Shown here: positions 1,579 to 57,224 of the stretch, piece after piece
Numbering within the stretch: the first letter of the stretch is position 1
How the letters are laid out: each line of letters opens with the position of its first letter
Assembly (NCBI RefSeq): GCF_900636965.1
Contig: NZ_LR134331.1
Coordinates: forward strand, 682,001 to 746,000
DNA: 64,000 bases
Source of the DNA: Lacticaseibacillus rhamnosus
Lineage (GTDB): Bacteria; Bacillota; Bacilli; Lactobacillales; Lactobacillaceae
Direction of reading: 5' to 3'
The notes under the pieces: generated by a model
Database searches by the model: none
The model's input: only the letters and a program-made list of their open reading frames with translations
What the model was told of the DNA's origin: nothing
Translations under genes and position numbers: made by a program

Positions 1579-1635
1579 GTGATGAATTATCGGCAAACAC
1601 AACTGAATAACTTTTTTGGCAGCTTTTTTGGATAG
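1579..1635 (+). CDS. Phenylalanine-rich attenuator leader peptide (18 codons)
   Basis: GAGGGAG (1564-1570) precedes GTG at 1579 by 8 nt; ATG at 1582 is the alternative start. From that ATG the peptide reads MNYRQTQLNNFFGSFFG and ends with TAG at 1633-1635. Four of the last seven residues are Phe (TTT at 1612, 1615, 1624, 1627). The stop codon directly abuts the first arm of the attenuator hairpins at 1636. The peptide's role is inferred to be that of a ribosome-stalling sensor of charged tRNA-Phe, not a functional protein. Its counterpart at 3343 shares TQL and an aromatic-Gly ending but carries Tyr codons. It is too short for usual gene callers. Confidence 0.8.
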   Translation: MMNYRQTQLNNFFGSFFG

Positions 1636-1711: not shown

Positions 1712-1745
1712 GCCGTGTGGATGAACAATCATCCATGCGGCTTTT
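1712..1745 (+). terminator. Attenuator terminator T1 (Phe leader)
   Basis: Arms 1712-1723 and 1730-1741 form 12 continuous pairs (two G-U) with loop AACAAT, followed by TTTT at 1742-1745. It is conditional on segments 3 and 4 not pairing. Confidence 0.7.
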
Positions 1746-1760
1746 CGATACCGAAAACTC

Positions 1761-1803
1761 GGGCCAGTCGCATGGATAAAATCCAACGGCTGGCCCATTT
1801 TTT
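1761..1803 (+). terminator. Attenuator terminator T2 (Phe leader)
   Basis: GGGCCAGTCG (1761-1770) pairs with CGGCTGGCCC (1787-1796) over 10 bp. An inner TGGAT/ATCCA stem extends it, and T6 follows at 1798-1803. It is a strong intrinsic terminator about 430 nt upstream of the structural gene. Confidence 0.85.
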
Positions 1804-2234: not shown

Positions 2235-3191
2235 ATGAAAAAGCATCTCGTACTCACGTTGGCAGCAACTGTCTTGATTGGATTAACCTTAATTGGCTGC
2301 GGCAAGAAATCAAGTGCCGCCAGCAGTCGAACGGTTAAAGTCGGTATTTTACAGTTAATGGACCAAACTGCTTTGACCGAAGCGCGTAAAGGGTTTGAAT
2401 CAGAACTTGCCAAGGCTGGCTACAGTGGCAAGCGGATCAAACTTGATTATGTGAACGCACAAGGCGATCAAGCTAATCTCAAAACCATGAGTGACCGGCT
2501 GGCGCGCGATAAGAATGATGTTAATTTGGCCATTGCCACACCAGCTGCTCAAGCCTTGCAAAAAGCCGATAAGAAGACACCGTTGCTTTTCACGGCGATT
2601 ACTGATCCTAAATCTGCAGGACTGGTGACGAATTTAGAAAAGCCTGACAAGAATGCGACCGGGGTTACAGATTTAGTCGCGGTGGCAGATCAGATTAATT
2701 TGCTGCATCAGACTTTCCCGCAAGCTAAAACGATTGGGTTAATGTACAACGCCAGCGAACCCAATTCGGTTTATCAAATCAAACATGCTAAGGCACGGCT
2801 CAAACAGTTGGGGTTGCGCTATCAGATTCGAACCGCAGCAACCACCAATGATGTGCAGCAGGCAGCCGAAAGTTTAGCCAAGGATGTCGACGCCTTGTAT
2901 CTACCGGCCGATAACGTGATGGCTGCTGCAATGCCGACGATCGGTAAAGTTGCCAAAGCTCACCAGATTCCGGTCGTCCCAGCCGCATCAACCATGGTTA
3001 AAGATGGAGGCACCATCACCAAGGGCATCGATTACCGTGATCTTGGCAAACAAACTGCGAAGATGGCGATCAAACTGCTTAAGGGAACAGCAGTCAAAAA
3101 ACTAAGCGTTGAAAAACCGGCCAAAGTTGAAACCGTAAAAAATGAAACAATGCTGAAAAATATTAAGCAAACGGTGCACCTGCCAAAATAG
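2235..3191 (+). CDS. ABC transporter substrate-binding lipoprotein (TrpX family), Phe-leader controlled
   Basis: 318 residues from ATG at 2235 after TGGGAGGA (2221-2228). A lipoprotein signal peptide (MKKHLVLTLAATVLIG) ends in a lipobox with Cys22 (LIGC). The mature protein has the two-lobe periplasmic-binding fold of the ABC_sub_bind family usually annotated as tryptophan or amino-acid binding: VKVGILQLMDQTALTEARKG, DYVNAQGD, ATPAAQAL, LLFTAITDPKSAGL, LPADNVMAAA, and a GIDYRDLGKQTAKMA ending. It is clearly paralogous to the gene at 3776. No permease of its own follows, so it probably feeds the permease/ATPase at 4773-6549. The leader at 1579-1803 suggests phenylalanine as ligand; that is inference. 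Confidence 0.88.
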   Translation: MKKHLVLTLAATVLIGLTLIGCGKKSSAASSRTVKVGILQLMDQTALTEARKGFESELAKAGYSGKRIKLDYVNAQGDQANLKTMSDRLARDKNDVNLAIATPAAQALQKADKKTPLLFTAITDPKSAGLVTNLEKPDKNATGVTDLVAVADQINLLHQTFPQAKTIGLMYNASEPNSVYQIKHAKARLKQLGLRYQIRTAATTNDVQQAAESLAKDVDALYLPADNVMAAAMPTIGKVAKAHQIPVVPAASTMVKDGGTITKGIDYRDLGKQTAKMAIKLLKGTAVKKLSVEKPAKVETVKNETMLKNIKQTVHLPK

Positions 3192-3266: not shown

Positions 3267-3295
3267 TTGACAAACTGAGATTATGAGTATACGCT
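3267..3295 (+). promoter_or_regulatory. Promoter of the Tyr leader / transporter operon
   Basis: TTGACA (3267-3272), 17 bp, then TACGCT (3290-3295). No terminator is evident between the first binding-protein gene (stop 3189-3191) and this point, so read-through transcripts would also enter the second attenuator. Confidence 0.55.
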
Positions 3296-3342
3296 TTGAA
3301 ACAAGCCAGAAGGGTTAACTTCTGAGCAAAGGAGTGTTGATC

Positions 3343-3402
3343 ATGAGACAAAGAAAAACAACACAACTTATTCACGCGTACTATTACGGCTATTTCGGAT
3401 AA
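3343..3402 (+). CDS. Tyrosine-rich attenuator leader peptide (19 codons)
   Basis: AAAGGAG (3328-3334) lies 8 nt before ATG 3343. The peptide is MRQRKTTQLIHAYYYGYFG with TAA at 3400-3402. Tyr codons sit at 3379, 3382, 3385 and 3391, with Phe at 3394. The stop codon touches the first attenuator arm at 3403. Layout matches the Phe leader at 1579 (TQL, then an aromatic cluster, Gly, stop), but the codon cluster is Tyr. It is inferred to sense charged tRNA-Tyr by ribosome stalling. Confidence 0.83.
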   Translation: MRQRKTTQLIHAYYYGYFG

Positions 3403-3478
3403 TGGTTTGTATCTCATGGATACAAGCCAATCAGGTTTGTATCCATGATGGCCGTGAGTATTTCACTTGCAATTAACC

Positions 3479-3511
3479 GCCACATGGACGAATTCATCCA
3501 TGTGGCTTTTT
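3479..3511 (+). terminator. Attenuator terminator T1 (Tyr leader)
   Basis: GCCACATGGA (3479-3488) and TCCATGTGGC (3497-3506) are perfectly complementary and followed by TTTTT (3507-3511). Confidence 0.75.
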
Positions 3512-3531
3512 CTTTCCCGGGAAAAAAGTAA

Positions 3532-3576
3532 AAGGCCAGTCACATGGATGAGAAAATCCAGTGGCTGGCCTTTTTT
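3532..3576 (+). terminator. Attenuator terminator T2 (Tyr leader)
   Basis: AAGGCCAGTCAC (3532-3543) pairs with GTGGCTGGCCTT (3561-3572) over 12 bp with an inner TGGAT/ATCCA stem; a T6 tract ends at 3576. Confidence 0.87.
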
Positions 3577-3628
3577 GGCGAGTGAGTTCTGTAGTGCGAG
3601 TGCCAGTGTGAGTAGAAGGTGACTCGCG

Positions 3629-3755
3629 CTCACCATAACGCGTTCACAGGGCCAGAAACCTGCGTGTAAGCACCTTGGTCGCAATGGCCAAGAGCGGGCC
3701 ATCACGATTAAGGCCGCTTACACTCCGACTTCTAACCGCGCTGGTTCACGCTCAC
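3629..3755 (-). repeat. Long palindromic repeat, copy C (reverse)
   Basis: It runs from CTCACCATAACGCG to CGGTTCACGCTCAC. Its GCTCAC end is followed by TTTATTTT and then the AGGAGG of the binding-protein gene at 3776. The stem CACCTTGGTCGCAATGGCC / GGCCATCACGATTAAGG is imperfect here. Confidence 0.88.
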
Positions 3756-3775
3756 TTTATTTTAGGAGGAAGAAA

Positions 3776-4744
3776 ATGATGATTAAAAAAATGGCTGCCG
3801 TTGTAGCAGCGGCGTTGACGGTTGTGGCTTTGGCTGGTTGTGGTAAATCCACGAGTGCTGCGGCTGATAAGAGTCAGGTGAAGGTTGGGGTTTTGCAATT
3901 GATTGATCAGCAAGCCTTAACCGCAGCACGAAAAGGTTTTACCGAAGAGCTTGCTAAAGCCGGTTACAAGGGTAAGAAGATCAAACTTGATTATGTGAAT
4001 GCCCAAGGCGATCAGTCGAATCTGCAGACGATGAGTCAACGCCTGAAGCGGGATAAGAACGATGTTAACCTAGCGATTGCCACTCCGGCAGCTCAGGCTT
4101 TGCATAAGGAAGATGCTACAACGCCAATGCTGTTTACAGCGGTGACGGATCCTAAGGCGGCCGGGCTGGTAAGTAACCCTTCTAAGCCAGACAAAAATGC
4201 AACGGGGGTAACGGATAAAGTCGATGTTGCAGGGCAAATCAGCTTTATTCACAAAGTTTTCCCTAAAGCCAAGAAAATAGGGTTGCTCTTCAATGCCGCT
4301 GAAGAAAATTCCCAGGTTCAAGTTAAGCTTGCCAAGGCAGCAATTAAGAAGTTAGGGTTGACGTCAGTTGAGAAGACCGCGGCAACGACCAATGATGTTG
4401 AACAAAGTGCCACGGCCTTGATGAAGCAAAGTGATGTCATCTACATTCCAACCGACAACACGATGGCCGCATCTATGGCCACCATTGGTAAGGTCAGCAC
4501 CAAGGAAAAAGTTCCGGTTGTGCCAGCCGATGCCACGATGGTTAAGTTAGCCGGAGTTGCAACGGTCGGCATCAATTACGAGGACCTCGGCAAACAAACC
4601 GGTAAGTTGGCAGTTAAGCTTTTGAAGGGTAAACAGGTCAAAGATTTGGCAGTTGAAACACCTGCCAAAACCCGGTTAGTCACCAATCCCAAACGGATGC
4701 AGCAATTTGGGCTGACTGAAGCGATGTTGAAACAAGCAGAATAA
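3776..4744 (+). CDS. ABC transporter substrate-binding lipoprotein (TrpX family), Tyr-leader controlled
   Basis: 322 residues; AGGAGG (3764-3769) is 6 nt before ATG 3776. The signal peptide ends in lipobox LAGC with Cys22. Mature sequence parallels the paralogue at 2235 motif by motif (VKVGVLQLIDQQALTAARKG, DYVNAQGDQSN, ATPAAQAL, TAVTDPKAAGLV, IPTDNTMAASM, GINYEDLGKQTGKLAVKLL). The permease follows 28 bp later, so this gene heads the transporter operon. A Tyr-rich leader and terminator pair precede it, so tyrosine is the inferred cargo. Annotation pipelines would likely call it tryptophan-binding; the leader argues against Trp because no Trp codon is present in either leader. Confidence 0.9.
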   Translation: MMIKKMAAVVAAALTVVALAGCGKSTSAAADKSQVKVGVLQLIDQQALTAARKGFTEELAKAGYKGKKIKLDYVNAQGDQSNLQTMSQRLKRDKNDVNLAIATPAAQALHKEDATTPMLFTAVTDPKAAGLVSNPSKPDKNATGVTDKVDVAGQISFIHKVFPKAKKIGLLFNAAEENSQVQVKLAKAAIKKLGLTSVEKTAATTNDVEQSATALMKQSDVIYIPTDNTMAASMATIGKVSTKEKVPVVPADATMVKLAGVATVGINYEDLGKQTGKLAVKLLKGKQVKDLAVETPAKTRLVTNPKRMQQFGLTEAMLKQAE

Positions 4745-4772
4745 GCGAGCATTTTTAAAAAGGGGTTTCGTT

Positions 4773-5744
4773 ATGGATATTGTGACATCAAGTATTGCCC
4801 AAGGATTATTGTGGTCGGTCATGGCCATTGGCGTGTATCTGACATTTCGTATTTTAGACATTGCCGATATGACGGCAGAAGGTAGCTTTCCACTAGGCGC
4901 GGCAATAACTGCTCAGGCAATTGTATCAGGAGTTGGCCCGATTGCAGCAACGTTGCTGGGTTTTGCCGGCGGGGCTGCTGCAGGTGCGGTGTCGGGTTTT
5001 CTGACGACCAAATTGCACATTCCGGATCTGCTCACTGGTATTTTGACCATGACCGGTTTATATTCCGTCAATCTTTTCATCATGGGAAAAGCCAATGTCA
5101 GCTTGATTGGCGCGGTCAAGACTGTGTTCAATTTGACAGATAGCGGGGATGCGACAACGACTGGCATCATCGTGGGCGCTATTGTGGTGGCAATTGTCAT
5201 CGGAGCTCTGGTTTTCTTCTTCCATACCGAAATGGGATTGGCTGCAGCCGCAGTTGGTAACAATCAGAATATGGCGGCTGCTAACGGGATTAATAATGAT
5301 GCGATGAAGATCATTATTTACATGTTGAGCAATGGTTTGATTGCATTGTCTGGCAGTCTCATGGCACAGACTAATGGCTATGCAGATCTGTCCATGGGTA
5401 TTGGCACAATTGTAATTGCCTTGGCCGCTATCATCATTTCCGAAATCCTGGTGCGCGGGGTGCCGTTGTGGGCGCGTTTGCTAATGATCATTGTGGGTGC
5501 CGTGATTTACCGGCTCATTATTGCGGTGGTCTTGGATATGGGCGTGGATCCGAACTACTTGCGCTTCTTCTACGCACTCATGTTGACAATTTTCTTATCA
5601 CTGCCGTTGTTGAAAAAGAAACTCTTCCAAGTAAAAGTACGACACAGCAATCGGCAACAGGTCAAGTCTGACCAACGCATGGTTGCCAAAACATCGGATC
5701 ATATGACGATTGCACCGGCAGAGCAACAAAAGGAGGTTCATTAA
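4773..5744 (+). CDS. ABC transporter permease (TrpY/LivH-like)
   Basis: 323 residues, ATG 4773 after AAAAAGGGG. It is very hydrophobic with about eight to nine membrane helices of the BPD_transp_2 type (ILDIADMTAEGSFPLGAAIT near the N terminus is typical of this amino-acid permease group; GIGTIVIALAAIIISEILVRG later). A polar tail of about 50 residues rich in Lys/Gln follows the last helix. It would form the channel for both lipoproteins at 2235 and 3776. It lies 28 bp after the second binding protein and 1 bp before the ATPase start, so it is co-transcribed under the Tyr attenuator. Confidence 0.9.
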   Translation: MDIVTSSIAQGLLWSVMAIGVYLTFRILDIADMTAEGSFPLGAAITAQAIVSGVGPIAATLLGFAGGAAAGAVSGFLTTKLHIPDLLTGILTMTGLYSVNLFIMGKANVSLIGAVKTVFNLTDSGDATTTGIIVGAIVVAIVIGALVFFFHTEMGLAAAAVGNNQNMAAANGINNDAMKIIIYMLSNGLIALSGSLMAQTNGYADLSMGIGTIVIALAAIIISEILVRGVPLWARLLMIIVGAVIYRLIIAVVLDMGVDPNYLRFFYALMLTIFLSLPLLKKKLFQVKVRHSNRQQVKSDQRMVAKTSDHMTIAPAEQQKEVH

Positions 5745-5745
5745 C

Positions 5746-6549
5746 ATGGCAGTTCTGGACGTACGCGGGTTGCACCAATATTTTGAGCAAGGTACCGTCA
5801 ATGAGAATCACGCGTTAAAAGGAATTGATTTGAGCCTGGAACGTGGTGAATTTGTCGCTATTATTGGTGGTAATGGTGCAGGTAAATCAACCTTGTTAAA
5901 CAGCATCGCCGGAACATTGCCGGTTAATCAAGGCCAAATCCTGATCAATGGCAAAGATGTCACTTACCAAAATGTTGCGAAACGGGCCAAGCTCATTGCG
6001 CGGGTTTTCCAAGACCCGCGTTCTGGCACTGCCTCTTTATTGACGATTGAACAAAACCTTGCCTTAGCAGAAAAGCGTGGCGAATGGCGTAACTTCTGGG
6101 CAGGCGGCGTCAAGCGTCGTGATCGGCAGCATTTTCAGGAGAAACTGGCGACATTGGGTTTAGGACTAGAGAAACGTCTTGGCGCAGAAATGGGCTTGCT
6201 TTCAGGAGGCCAACGCCAGGCAGTGACTTTGTTAATGGCAACCTTGAAGAAGCCGGCGTTGTTGCTGCTGGATGAACATACGGCGGCGCTTGATCCTCAA
6301 ACGAGTGCGACTGTTATGGCCTTGACAGATCAAATGGTGCGCGCTCAACAGATTACCACTTTGATGATTACGCACAACATGGCAAGCGCGTTGAAATACG
6401 GTGACCGCTTAATCATGTTGGATCACGGGGAGATCGCTGTTGATGTACGCGGCGAGGAAAAGCGACATTTGACAGTTGAAGATTTGTTAACACTGTTTAA
6501 AGAACGCAGCGGGCAGGAATTTGCCGATGATGCGGTCTTGCTGAGCTAG
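5746..6549 (+). CDS. ABC transporter ATP-binding protein (TrpZ-like)
   Basis: 267 residues from ATG 5746, preceded by AAAGGAGG (5729-5736) within the end of the permease gene; an upstream in-frame ATG at 5710 would read through that RBS and is rejected. It has Walker A GGNGAGKST (about residues 41-49), Q-loop VFQDP, signature LLSGGQRQAVTLL, Walker B LLLLDEHTAALD and H-loop MITHN. It powers the importer formed with the permease at 4773. The operon ends at a strong terminator at 6564. Confidence 0.93.
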   Translation: MAVLDVRGLHQYFEQGTVNENHALKGIDLSLERGEFVAIIGGNGAGKSTLLNSIAGTLPVNQGQILINGKDVTYQNVAKRAKLIARVFQDPRSGTASLLTIEQNLALAEKRGEWRNFWAGGVKRRDRQHFQEKLATLGLGLEKRLGAEMGLLSGGQRQAVTLLMATLKKPALLLLDEHTAALDPQTSATVMALTDQMVRAQQITTLMITHNMASALKYGDRLIMLDHGEIAVDVRGEEKRHLTVEDLLTLFKERSGQEFADDAVLLS

Positions 6550-56851: not shown

Positions 56852-56977
56852 TCTCGAAACGCGTTCCCCGGCGCAGGAGTCTGCGTGTAAGGACCTTGGA
56901 CGCAATGGTCAAAGCCCGCCCGGCCATTACGCTCAAGGCCACTTACACTCCGGTTTCTAAGCGGGCTGGCTCACGCT
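56852..56977 (-). repeat. Palindromic repeat, array copy Q1 (reverse)
   Basis: First of three tandem units; GGACCTTGGACGCAATGG / CCATTACGCTCAAGGCC, with a CGCC insertion near the apex. Confidence 0.9.
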
Positions 56978-57100
56978 CTGCTGAAACGCGTTCGCCGGCG
57001 CAGGAGTCTGCGTGTAAGGACCTTGGATGCAATGGTCAAAGCCCGACCATCACGTCCAAGGCCGCTTACACTCCGACTCCTGAACGCGCCGGCTCACGCT
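56978..57100 (-). repeat. Palindromic repeat, array copy Q2 (reverse)
   Basis: Begins CTGCTGAAACGCG; stem ACCTTGGATGC / ..CGTCCAAGG with outer AGGAGTC/GACTCCT. Repeats with period 123 bp as Q3. Confidence 0.92.
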
Positions 57101-57224
57101 CTGCTGAAACGCGTTCGCCGGCGCAGGAGTCTGCGTGTAAGGACCTTGGACGCAATGGTCAAAGCCCGACCATCACGTCCAAGGCCACTTACACTCCGAC
57201 TCCTGAACGCGCCGGCTCACGCTC
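57101..57224 (-). repeat. Palindromic repeat, array copy Q3 (reverse)
   Basis: Almost identical to Q2; ends GGCTCACGCTC next to T5. Confidence 0.92.

Follow-up and report, generated by a model that had tools for sequence, protein, structure and literature searches.

Introduction

The trp, pheA, and his attenuators of Escherichia coli combine a translated leader containing codons for the end product with mutually exclusive helices and a terminator, and the cognate pathway lies downstream. Codon-based attenuation replaces the T-box in the hisS/hisZ leaders of bacilli (PMC2965389) and in the leucine-rich ilv leader peptide of Staphylococcus aureus (PMC5794164). In Streptococcus, the trpXYZ aromatic uptake operon is controlled at termination by a Trp T-box, which is a tRNA-binding riboswitch without a leader peptide (PMC9382623). 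Two Rfam entries are also related to the present work. The trpB motif (RF04312, or SRC-39-1; more than 900 members) was proposed to be a riboswitch and was classified as a strong candidate, although its authors did not dismiss a classic attenuator (PMC11109978). The RNA sRNA_2410 (RF02863) was found as a small RNA of Enterococcus faecium, in which RNA-seq detected short transcripts and a Northern blot revealed two (PMC5593968).

This study analyzed positions 3343–3576 of the window, that is, the whole 64,000-nucleotide stretch of Lacticaseibacillus rhamnosus DNA. Very probably, this element is a ribosome-mediated attenuator that regulates a Tyr-type SBP2-permease-ATPase operon by sensing charged tRNA-Tyr. 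It shares with the E. coli attenuators all of the features listed above; unlike them, it belongs to a Firmicute, precedes a transporter, has two tandem terminators, and contains sensor codons that pair with a distal segment (3b), and a ribosome at its stop codon would mask segment 1 so that the 2:3 pairing blocks the antiterminator. Termination control of a homologous uptake operon is shared with trpXYZ, whereas the T-box has no leader peptide. Attenuation by codons in place of a T-box is shared with hisS/hisZ and ilv, but those leaders carry His or branched-chain codons and are unrelated in sequence. The trpB motif has the same 2:3 hairpin, antiterminator shoulder, T1, transporter family, and upstream leader ORF, but its codons are those of Trp (WQxW) and the published model omits the ORF. 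The Enterococcus RNA aligns in P0, 1:2, 3/3b, and T1, and its leader (TQLN..FFFSYFR and a stop codon) precedes a gene for a TrpX-like binding protein (SBP); it differs in its mixed Phe/Tyr codons and in being filed as a small RNA. This kind of attenuator is known, whereas the present branch with its topology, as well as reassigning the two Rfam entries, seems to be without precedent in the literature searched, in which we found no description of the element as a Lactobacillales leader peptide.

Organization of the Tyr and Phe leaders

The features of the two leaders and their downstream genes are as follows.

1582–1635, forward strand: Phe leader peptide MNYRQTQLNNFFGSFFG and its stop codon, from ORF reading and genus comparison
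1712–1800, forward strand: tandem terminators of the Phe leader (T1 1712–1741, T2 about 1761–1796)
2235–3191, forward strand: SBP1 binding protein (PF04392, TrpX-like), whose pocket is Phe-type, the selectivity position being Ala
3267–3295, forward strand: putative Tyr-leader promoter (TTGACA and TACGCT, 17 nt apart), with promoters at the equivalent place in relatives
3329–3334, forward strand: Shine-Dalgarno sequence AAGGAG, read from the sequence
3343–3402, forward strand: Tyr leader peptide ORF (ATG 3343, TAA 3400–3402), encoding the 19 residues MRQRKTTQLIHAYYYGYFG
3379–3396, forward strand: sensor codon cluster Tyr-Tyr-Tyr-Gly-Tyr-Phe, from ORF reading and genus comparison
3385–3391, forward strand: segment 0 (TACGGCT), the sensor-codon strand of helix P0, pairing with 3450–3456
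3403–3414, forward strand: segment 1, directly 3' of the leader stop, pairing with segment 2
3418–3429, forward strand: segment 2, pairing with segment 1 or segment 3, with covariation
3434–3448, forward strand: segment 3, pairing with segment 2 or, as antiterminator, with the T1 5' arm
3450–3456, forward strand: segment 3b (GGCCGTG), which is complementary to the sensor codons, from P0 partner comparison and covariation
3479–3511, forward strand: intrinsic terminator T1 (stem 3479–3506, then a U tract)
3534–3576, forward strand: intrinsic terminator T2, its 5' arm complementary to the T1 3' arm
3776–4744, forward strand: SBP2 binding protein (PF04392, TrpX-like), with a Tyr-type pocket (Asp252, Tyr268)
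4773–5744, forward strand: permease (Pfam domain PF02653)
5746–6549, forward strand: ATPase (Pfam domain PF00005)

A preliminary description had placed an ORF at ATG 3343 with a peptide ending in YYYGYFG, and the sequence confirmed both the coordinates and the translation. The cluster comprises four Tyr codons and one Phe codon, and most relatives have YYYGYYG. The same description had given both copies one layout, a leader before a transporter operon. The leaders do correspond, but an operon follows only the second copy, in which SBP2, the permease, and the ATPase occupy 3776–6549; SBP1 is a single gene without operon partners. Neither protein reached the cut-off of 390 for the TrpX tryptophan SBP model NF041285 (SBP1, 317.5; SBP2, 316.3), and both are predicted to be relatives of the TrpX family rather than Trp equivalogs.

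The leaders of relatives have a TTGACA-N17-TATTCT-like promoter at the same place, stronger than the TACGCT version predicted in the window, and the best promoter score was at least 10 for 54% of the leaders versus 1.4% of shuffles. The motif AGGAG(T/C)G is kept ahead of most Lacticaseibacillus leaders. As in an attenuator, a leader ORF with Shine-Dalgarno sequence, start, and stop sits between the predicted promoter and a terminator, and T1 has the longest stem (10 pairs) among 14 terminator-like sites in 10 kb. The RNA of the Tyr leader folds better than its shuffles (z = -8.4, 0/200), and the Phe leader yielded z = -8.0. A search of the window's genome returned these two leaders only, together with two weak matches that are the antisense of the same palindromes.

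A repeat of approximately 125 nt, often tandem, lies at 1800–2062 and, by eye, also at about 3590–3770, and has 91 matches in the window's genome. Three tandem copies of it are located on the minus strand at window positions 56858–57224 (genome 738858–739224). The number of copies between terminator and SBP gene may render the leader-to-gene distance variable in relatives.

Conservation in Lacticaseibacillus

We compared 30 Lacticaseibacillus genomes, the window's own among them. The named species nearest to the window's genome were L. chiayiensis and L. zeae. A Tyr- or Phe-coded leader preceded the Tyr/Phe-type SBP genes in 30/30, and some genomes had three leaders. The leaders fit the pattern xxxxTQLNxx(YYY or FFx)G(YY or FF)G followed by the stop codon, and their N-termini differ in sequence and, by whole codons, in length. 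The Tyr-codon comparison proposed in the preliminary description revealed that the aromatic codon cluster is conserved across the genus with synonymous variation: Tyr, Phe, Gln, and Asn each use two codons, and the Leu of TQLN uses five. Because the leaders are present in every genome and vary synonymously, they are not a chance occurrence.

The leader flavour follows the SBP clades (5 changes observed, 29.3 in shuffles). Since both flavours occur genus-wide and track these clades, the duplication with sensor swap that the preliminary description had recognized in the Phe/Tyr pair is supported and can be refined to an old event, probably older than much or all of the genus. SBP1 looks broken in two relatives, with two frames in one genome and an aberrant translation in another (L045 and L069; G005 and G004, respectively), perhaps because of sequencing error or decay.

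RNA structure and covariation

In an alignment of 51 leaders, we scored the pairings 1:2, 2:3, 3:T1 5' arm, T1, T1 3' arm:T2 5' arm, T2, and P0. The results revealed that 91.6% of the cells were paired in the off-state helices (P0, 2:3, and T1), compared with 34–37% when the partners were slid by 1–3 columns as a control. Double-change pairs in these helices numbered 15 versus 9.7 in shuffles (0/500), and cells changed on both sides numbered 102 versus 36.9, both counts being uncorrected for relatedness. The on-state helices (1:2 and 3:T1) were 94.6% paired (30–41% in the slid control), with 7 double-change pairs versus 3.7 in shuffles (4/500, again uncorrected for relatedness). This covariation fell mostly in 1:2, in which 6/9 pairs had double changes. 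A permutation test on the 3:T1 helix yielded no covariation signal because its sequence is nearly invariant. The leaders therefore contain mutually exclusive helices that end in an intrinsic terminator and are supported by covariation, with 3:T1 itself too conserved to contribute.

Helix P0, which joins the sensor codons to segment 3b, was paired in 90.9% of cells and had double changes in 5/7 pairs. One of its column pairs reads A-U in 23 sequences, C-G in 8, and U-A in 7; Tyr leaders have A-U there, and Phe leaders of the TTC-GGC type have U-A. Since this column change is the Tyr/Phe codon change itself, the codon change is compensated in P0. In 21/21 genomes, the P0 partner fitted its own codons better than those of the sister leader, with a mean gain of 8.8 kcal/mol over the Tyr/Phe swap. 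Because the sensor codons form an RNA strand, the RNA must change in compensation when the sensor is swapped, and the doubling of codons as a structural strand provides a clear case of co-evolution between coding and structure. The earlier reading as leader peptide plus attenuator was thus borne out by the comparative evidence, namely the conserved ORF, its codons, and the covarying helices.

Two other stretches are kept in the genus: T1 and T2 are separated by a short hairpin resembling CCGGGAAA (window 3512–3530), and 3b is followed, ahead of T1, by a stretch that contains TTTAAC (window 3457–3475).

Leader type and transporter pocket

The nearest solved relatives of SBP1 and SBP2 are the Tyr-binding protein CD0873 of Clostridioides difficile (6HNI–6HNK), 3LFT of Streptococcus pneumoniae, and 3LKV of Vibrio cholerae. 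Selectivity has been assigned to two CD0873 residues: Glu263, which touches the Tyr hydroxyl and has Ala as its counterpart in the Phe and Trp binders, and Tyr279, whose counterpart in the Trp binder is Gln (PMC6816091). Among Lacticaseibacillus Tyr leaders, the SBP downstream had Asp at the 263 position in 30/31 (25/26 of the main type and 5/5 of a third clade), the single exception having Thr. The Phe leaders preceded an SBP with Ala in 25/25 scorable cases. In other genera, Trp leaders preceded an SBP with Gln at the 279 position in 26/26, versus Tyr or Phe for Tyr/Phe leaders; residue 263 was less tidy outside Lacticaseibacillus, with Ser, Thr, Val, and Ala accompanying Tyr, Phe, and mixed leaders.

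The co-segregation of leader codons with the pocket residue (Asp versus Ala) supports the earlier assignment of Tyr and Phe as the sensed residues of the pair, and from it the downstream gene is predicted to handle the same amino acid. Sensing of the cognate amino acid is a prediction with three independent lines of support: covarying helices, the pocket residue, and the aroE, transketolase, and trpB genes that follow relatives of the element.

A divergent TrpX-like paralog (approximately 38% identity) had no such leader in the eight genomes read, and its sampled relatives had a Trp-type pocket (Val at 263, Gln at 279; 7/7). For the copy in the window's genome (L001, G000:C1:1848919–1849854), an aromatic leader, an Rfam match, and a T-box core-like string were sought and none was found.

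Proposed switch

The comparison shows the ORF, the aromatic codon cluster, the helices, and the link between codon type and pocket residue; ribosome stalling, the direction of the switch, and the order of events are the parts of the mechanism that we infer. RNA polymerase would start near 3267–3295, and a ribosome would follow it, translating the 19 leader codons. A shortage of Tyr would stall this ribosome on the Tyr codons at 3379–3393, where it covers segment 0 and spares segment 1; 1:2 would then form, leaving segment 3 free to capture the T1 5' arm, and the released T1 3' arm would capture the T2 5' arm, so that both terminators fail. When Tyr is ample, the ribosome at stop 3400 would mask segment 1, 2:3 would form, and T1 and T2 would terminate. 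Without translation, P0 (sensor codons plus 3b) and 2:3 would likewise favour termination. The Tyr leader thus very probably switches on a tyrosine importer when tyrosine is short, and the Phe leader at 1582 would act alike for SBP1.

The leader stop codon adjoins segment 1 in every leader. Under an assumed footprint of 12 nt downstream of the ribosome, a Tyr codon of 3379–3393 in the A site places the edge at or before 3403, which spares segment 1, and a ribosome at the stop covers to about 3412, which masks it. We folded the RNA in each ribosome state up to the T1 5' arm; this decision point was used because folding with the T1 3' arm is uninformative, the terminator always winning. Averaged over 54 leaders, the stall state favoured 1:2 (6.7 pairs) and 3:T1 (7.0 pairs), whereas the stop state had 10.6 pairs of 2:3 and none of 1:2. 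For the window Tyr leader in the stall state, the equilibrium fold still prefers 2:3, although 1:2 would be the first to form during transcription. With the complete T1 present, equilibrium folding favoured T1 in every ribosome state and in nearly all sequences; antitermination must therefore be kinetic, as in classical attenuators.

Relation to RF04312 and RF02863

At curated thresholds, neither a T-box nor any other Rfam family was found in the window, and no T-box match appeared even at E up to 5; identity as a T-box leader was rejected on this basis. The window leader aligned over the full length of RF04312 (42.8 bits, E about 6e-5; gathering cut-off 59) and of RF02863 (37.4 bits; gathering cut-off 61). 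Curated scores exclude it from both families despite the alignments and the common architecture; a different Lactobacillaceae relative (L122) clears the RF02863 cut-off with 83.7 bits. By its defining features, the window element is, as read from sequence, a leader-peptide attenuator.

An aromatic leader ended at model position 15 in 30/30 RF02863 loci versus 0/967 random places in the same loci, and in all 30 loci read a gene followed at a short distance, usually one for an aromatic SBP or aroE. For RF04312, 26/33 loci (the window included) passed an automatic leader filter versus 3/1086 random places, and the loci above the cut-off had a Trp leader in 30/30 (25 automatic and 5 read by hand, L175 among these). 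Outside Lactobacillales, a 398-genome phylum sample contained three weak RF04312 matches, in which reading revealed no convincing leaders. These findings suggest that RF04312 and RF02863 are branches of one aromatic leader-peptide family.

Alternative explanations

The published guess for the trpB motif, applied here, would have the RNA bind Tyr (or Phe or Trp) itself, with the small ORF incidental. The conserved, strong structure and the terminator and antiterminator agree with such a metabolite riboswitch, as does the ranking of the motif as a strong candidate (PMC11109978). The ORF, however, is kept as a peptide with Shine-Dalgarno sequence, start, stop, and aromatic codons that match the transporter pocket, and it lies outside the trpB motif model because that model begins 3' of the leader stop. 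Varying columns vary mostly as base pairs, and no obvious invariant aptamer core was seen. We consider a riboswitch very improbable. A stand-alone, trans-acting small RNA, the category under which the Enterococcus relative is filed, would account for the short E. faecium transcripts seen by RNA-seq and Northern blot (PMC5593968); terminated leaders explain them as well, two tandem terminators would give the two Northern bands, and the aromatic leader with a close downstream gene in 30/30 RF02863 loci leaves the trans-acting reading extremely improbable.

Two further proposals keep the attenuator and alter its working. The sign could be opposite, with stalling causing termination and completed translation causing read-through, and thermodynamics alone leaves the sign unfixed for the window Tyr leader. 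Nevertheless, the stop abuts segment 1 in every leader, so that a stop ribosome masks it and a Tyr-codon ribosome does not, and induction by plenty would be odd for an uptake operon; we regard this sign as quite improbable. A more plausible, still doubtful, addition is that QLN in the exit tunnel aids a pause at the stop or aromatic codons. Classical biosynthetic leaders seldom conserve non-sensor residues, and LN stands ahead of the cluster in 50/54 leaders of Lacticaseibacillus, in 30/37 of other Lactobacillaceae, and in 25/25 of RF02863, and five Leu codons are in use. Against such nascent-chain control, the window Tyr leader itself has LI instead of LN, only 7/24 Trp leaders have LN, and part of the LN conservation could reflect common descent. 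Attenuation by aromatic codons, with stalling leading to read-through, is the explanation that we favour.

Distribution in Lactobacillales

A covariance model built from the 51 leaders detected the element in 61/251 Lactobacillaceae genomes and 14/40 genera. In addition to aromatic SBPs, it precedes transketolase (leader ..YYYFWFFS) and aroE (..YYYYWFRK), both confirmed by Pfam, and a putative aminotransferase (..FYFWYFR) and an APC-like permease (..FAFSLFG), both named from sequence only; relatives also stand ahead of trpB, judged in the same manner. The Tyr/Phe pair would thus be one corner of a Lactobacillales-wide family that includes Trp and mixed-aromatic leaders. The window leaders, the trpB motif, and Enterococcus sRNA_2410 probably form one such attenuator superfamily, in which the sensor can be exchanged among Tyr, Phe, Trp, and mixed types and the sensor-codon helix covaries with it. 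If so, a riboswitch candidate and a small RNA, both orphans so far, would become leader-peptide attenuators with stated sensors, directly testable, and codon-based attenuation would be common in Lactobacillales, where T-boxes are usually expected. Because sensors are swappable within one superfamily, leader codons would predict the ligand of the downstream transporter, and leader type would offer an inexpensive way to predict which aromatic amino acid a transporter of food or gut bacteria takes up.

The element before the APC-like permease occurs in another Lactobacillaceae genus (L133, L139, and L149), with FAFSLFG clear in L133 and L149; the residue sensed by this leader would be Phe. A Lactobacillaceae Trp branch (L124, L130, L131, L135, and L142) has a single Trp codon, in RWQSR before the stop or in FWQSQH, rather than WQxW, and these leaders precede SBPs with Gln at the Trp position.
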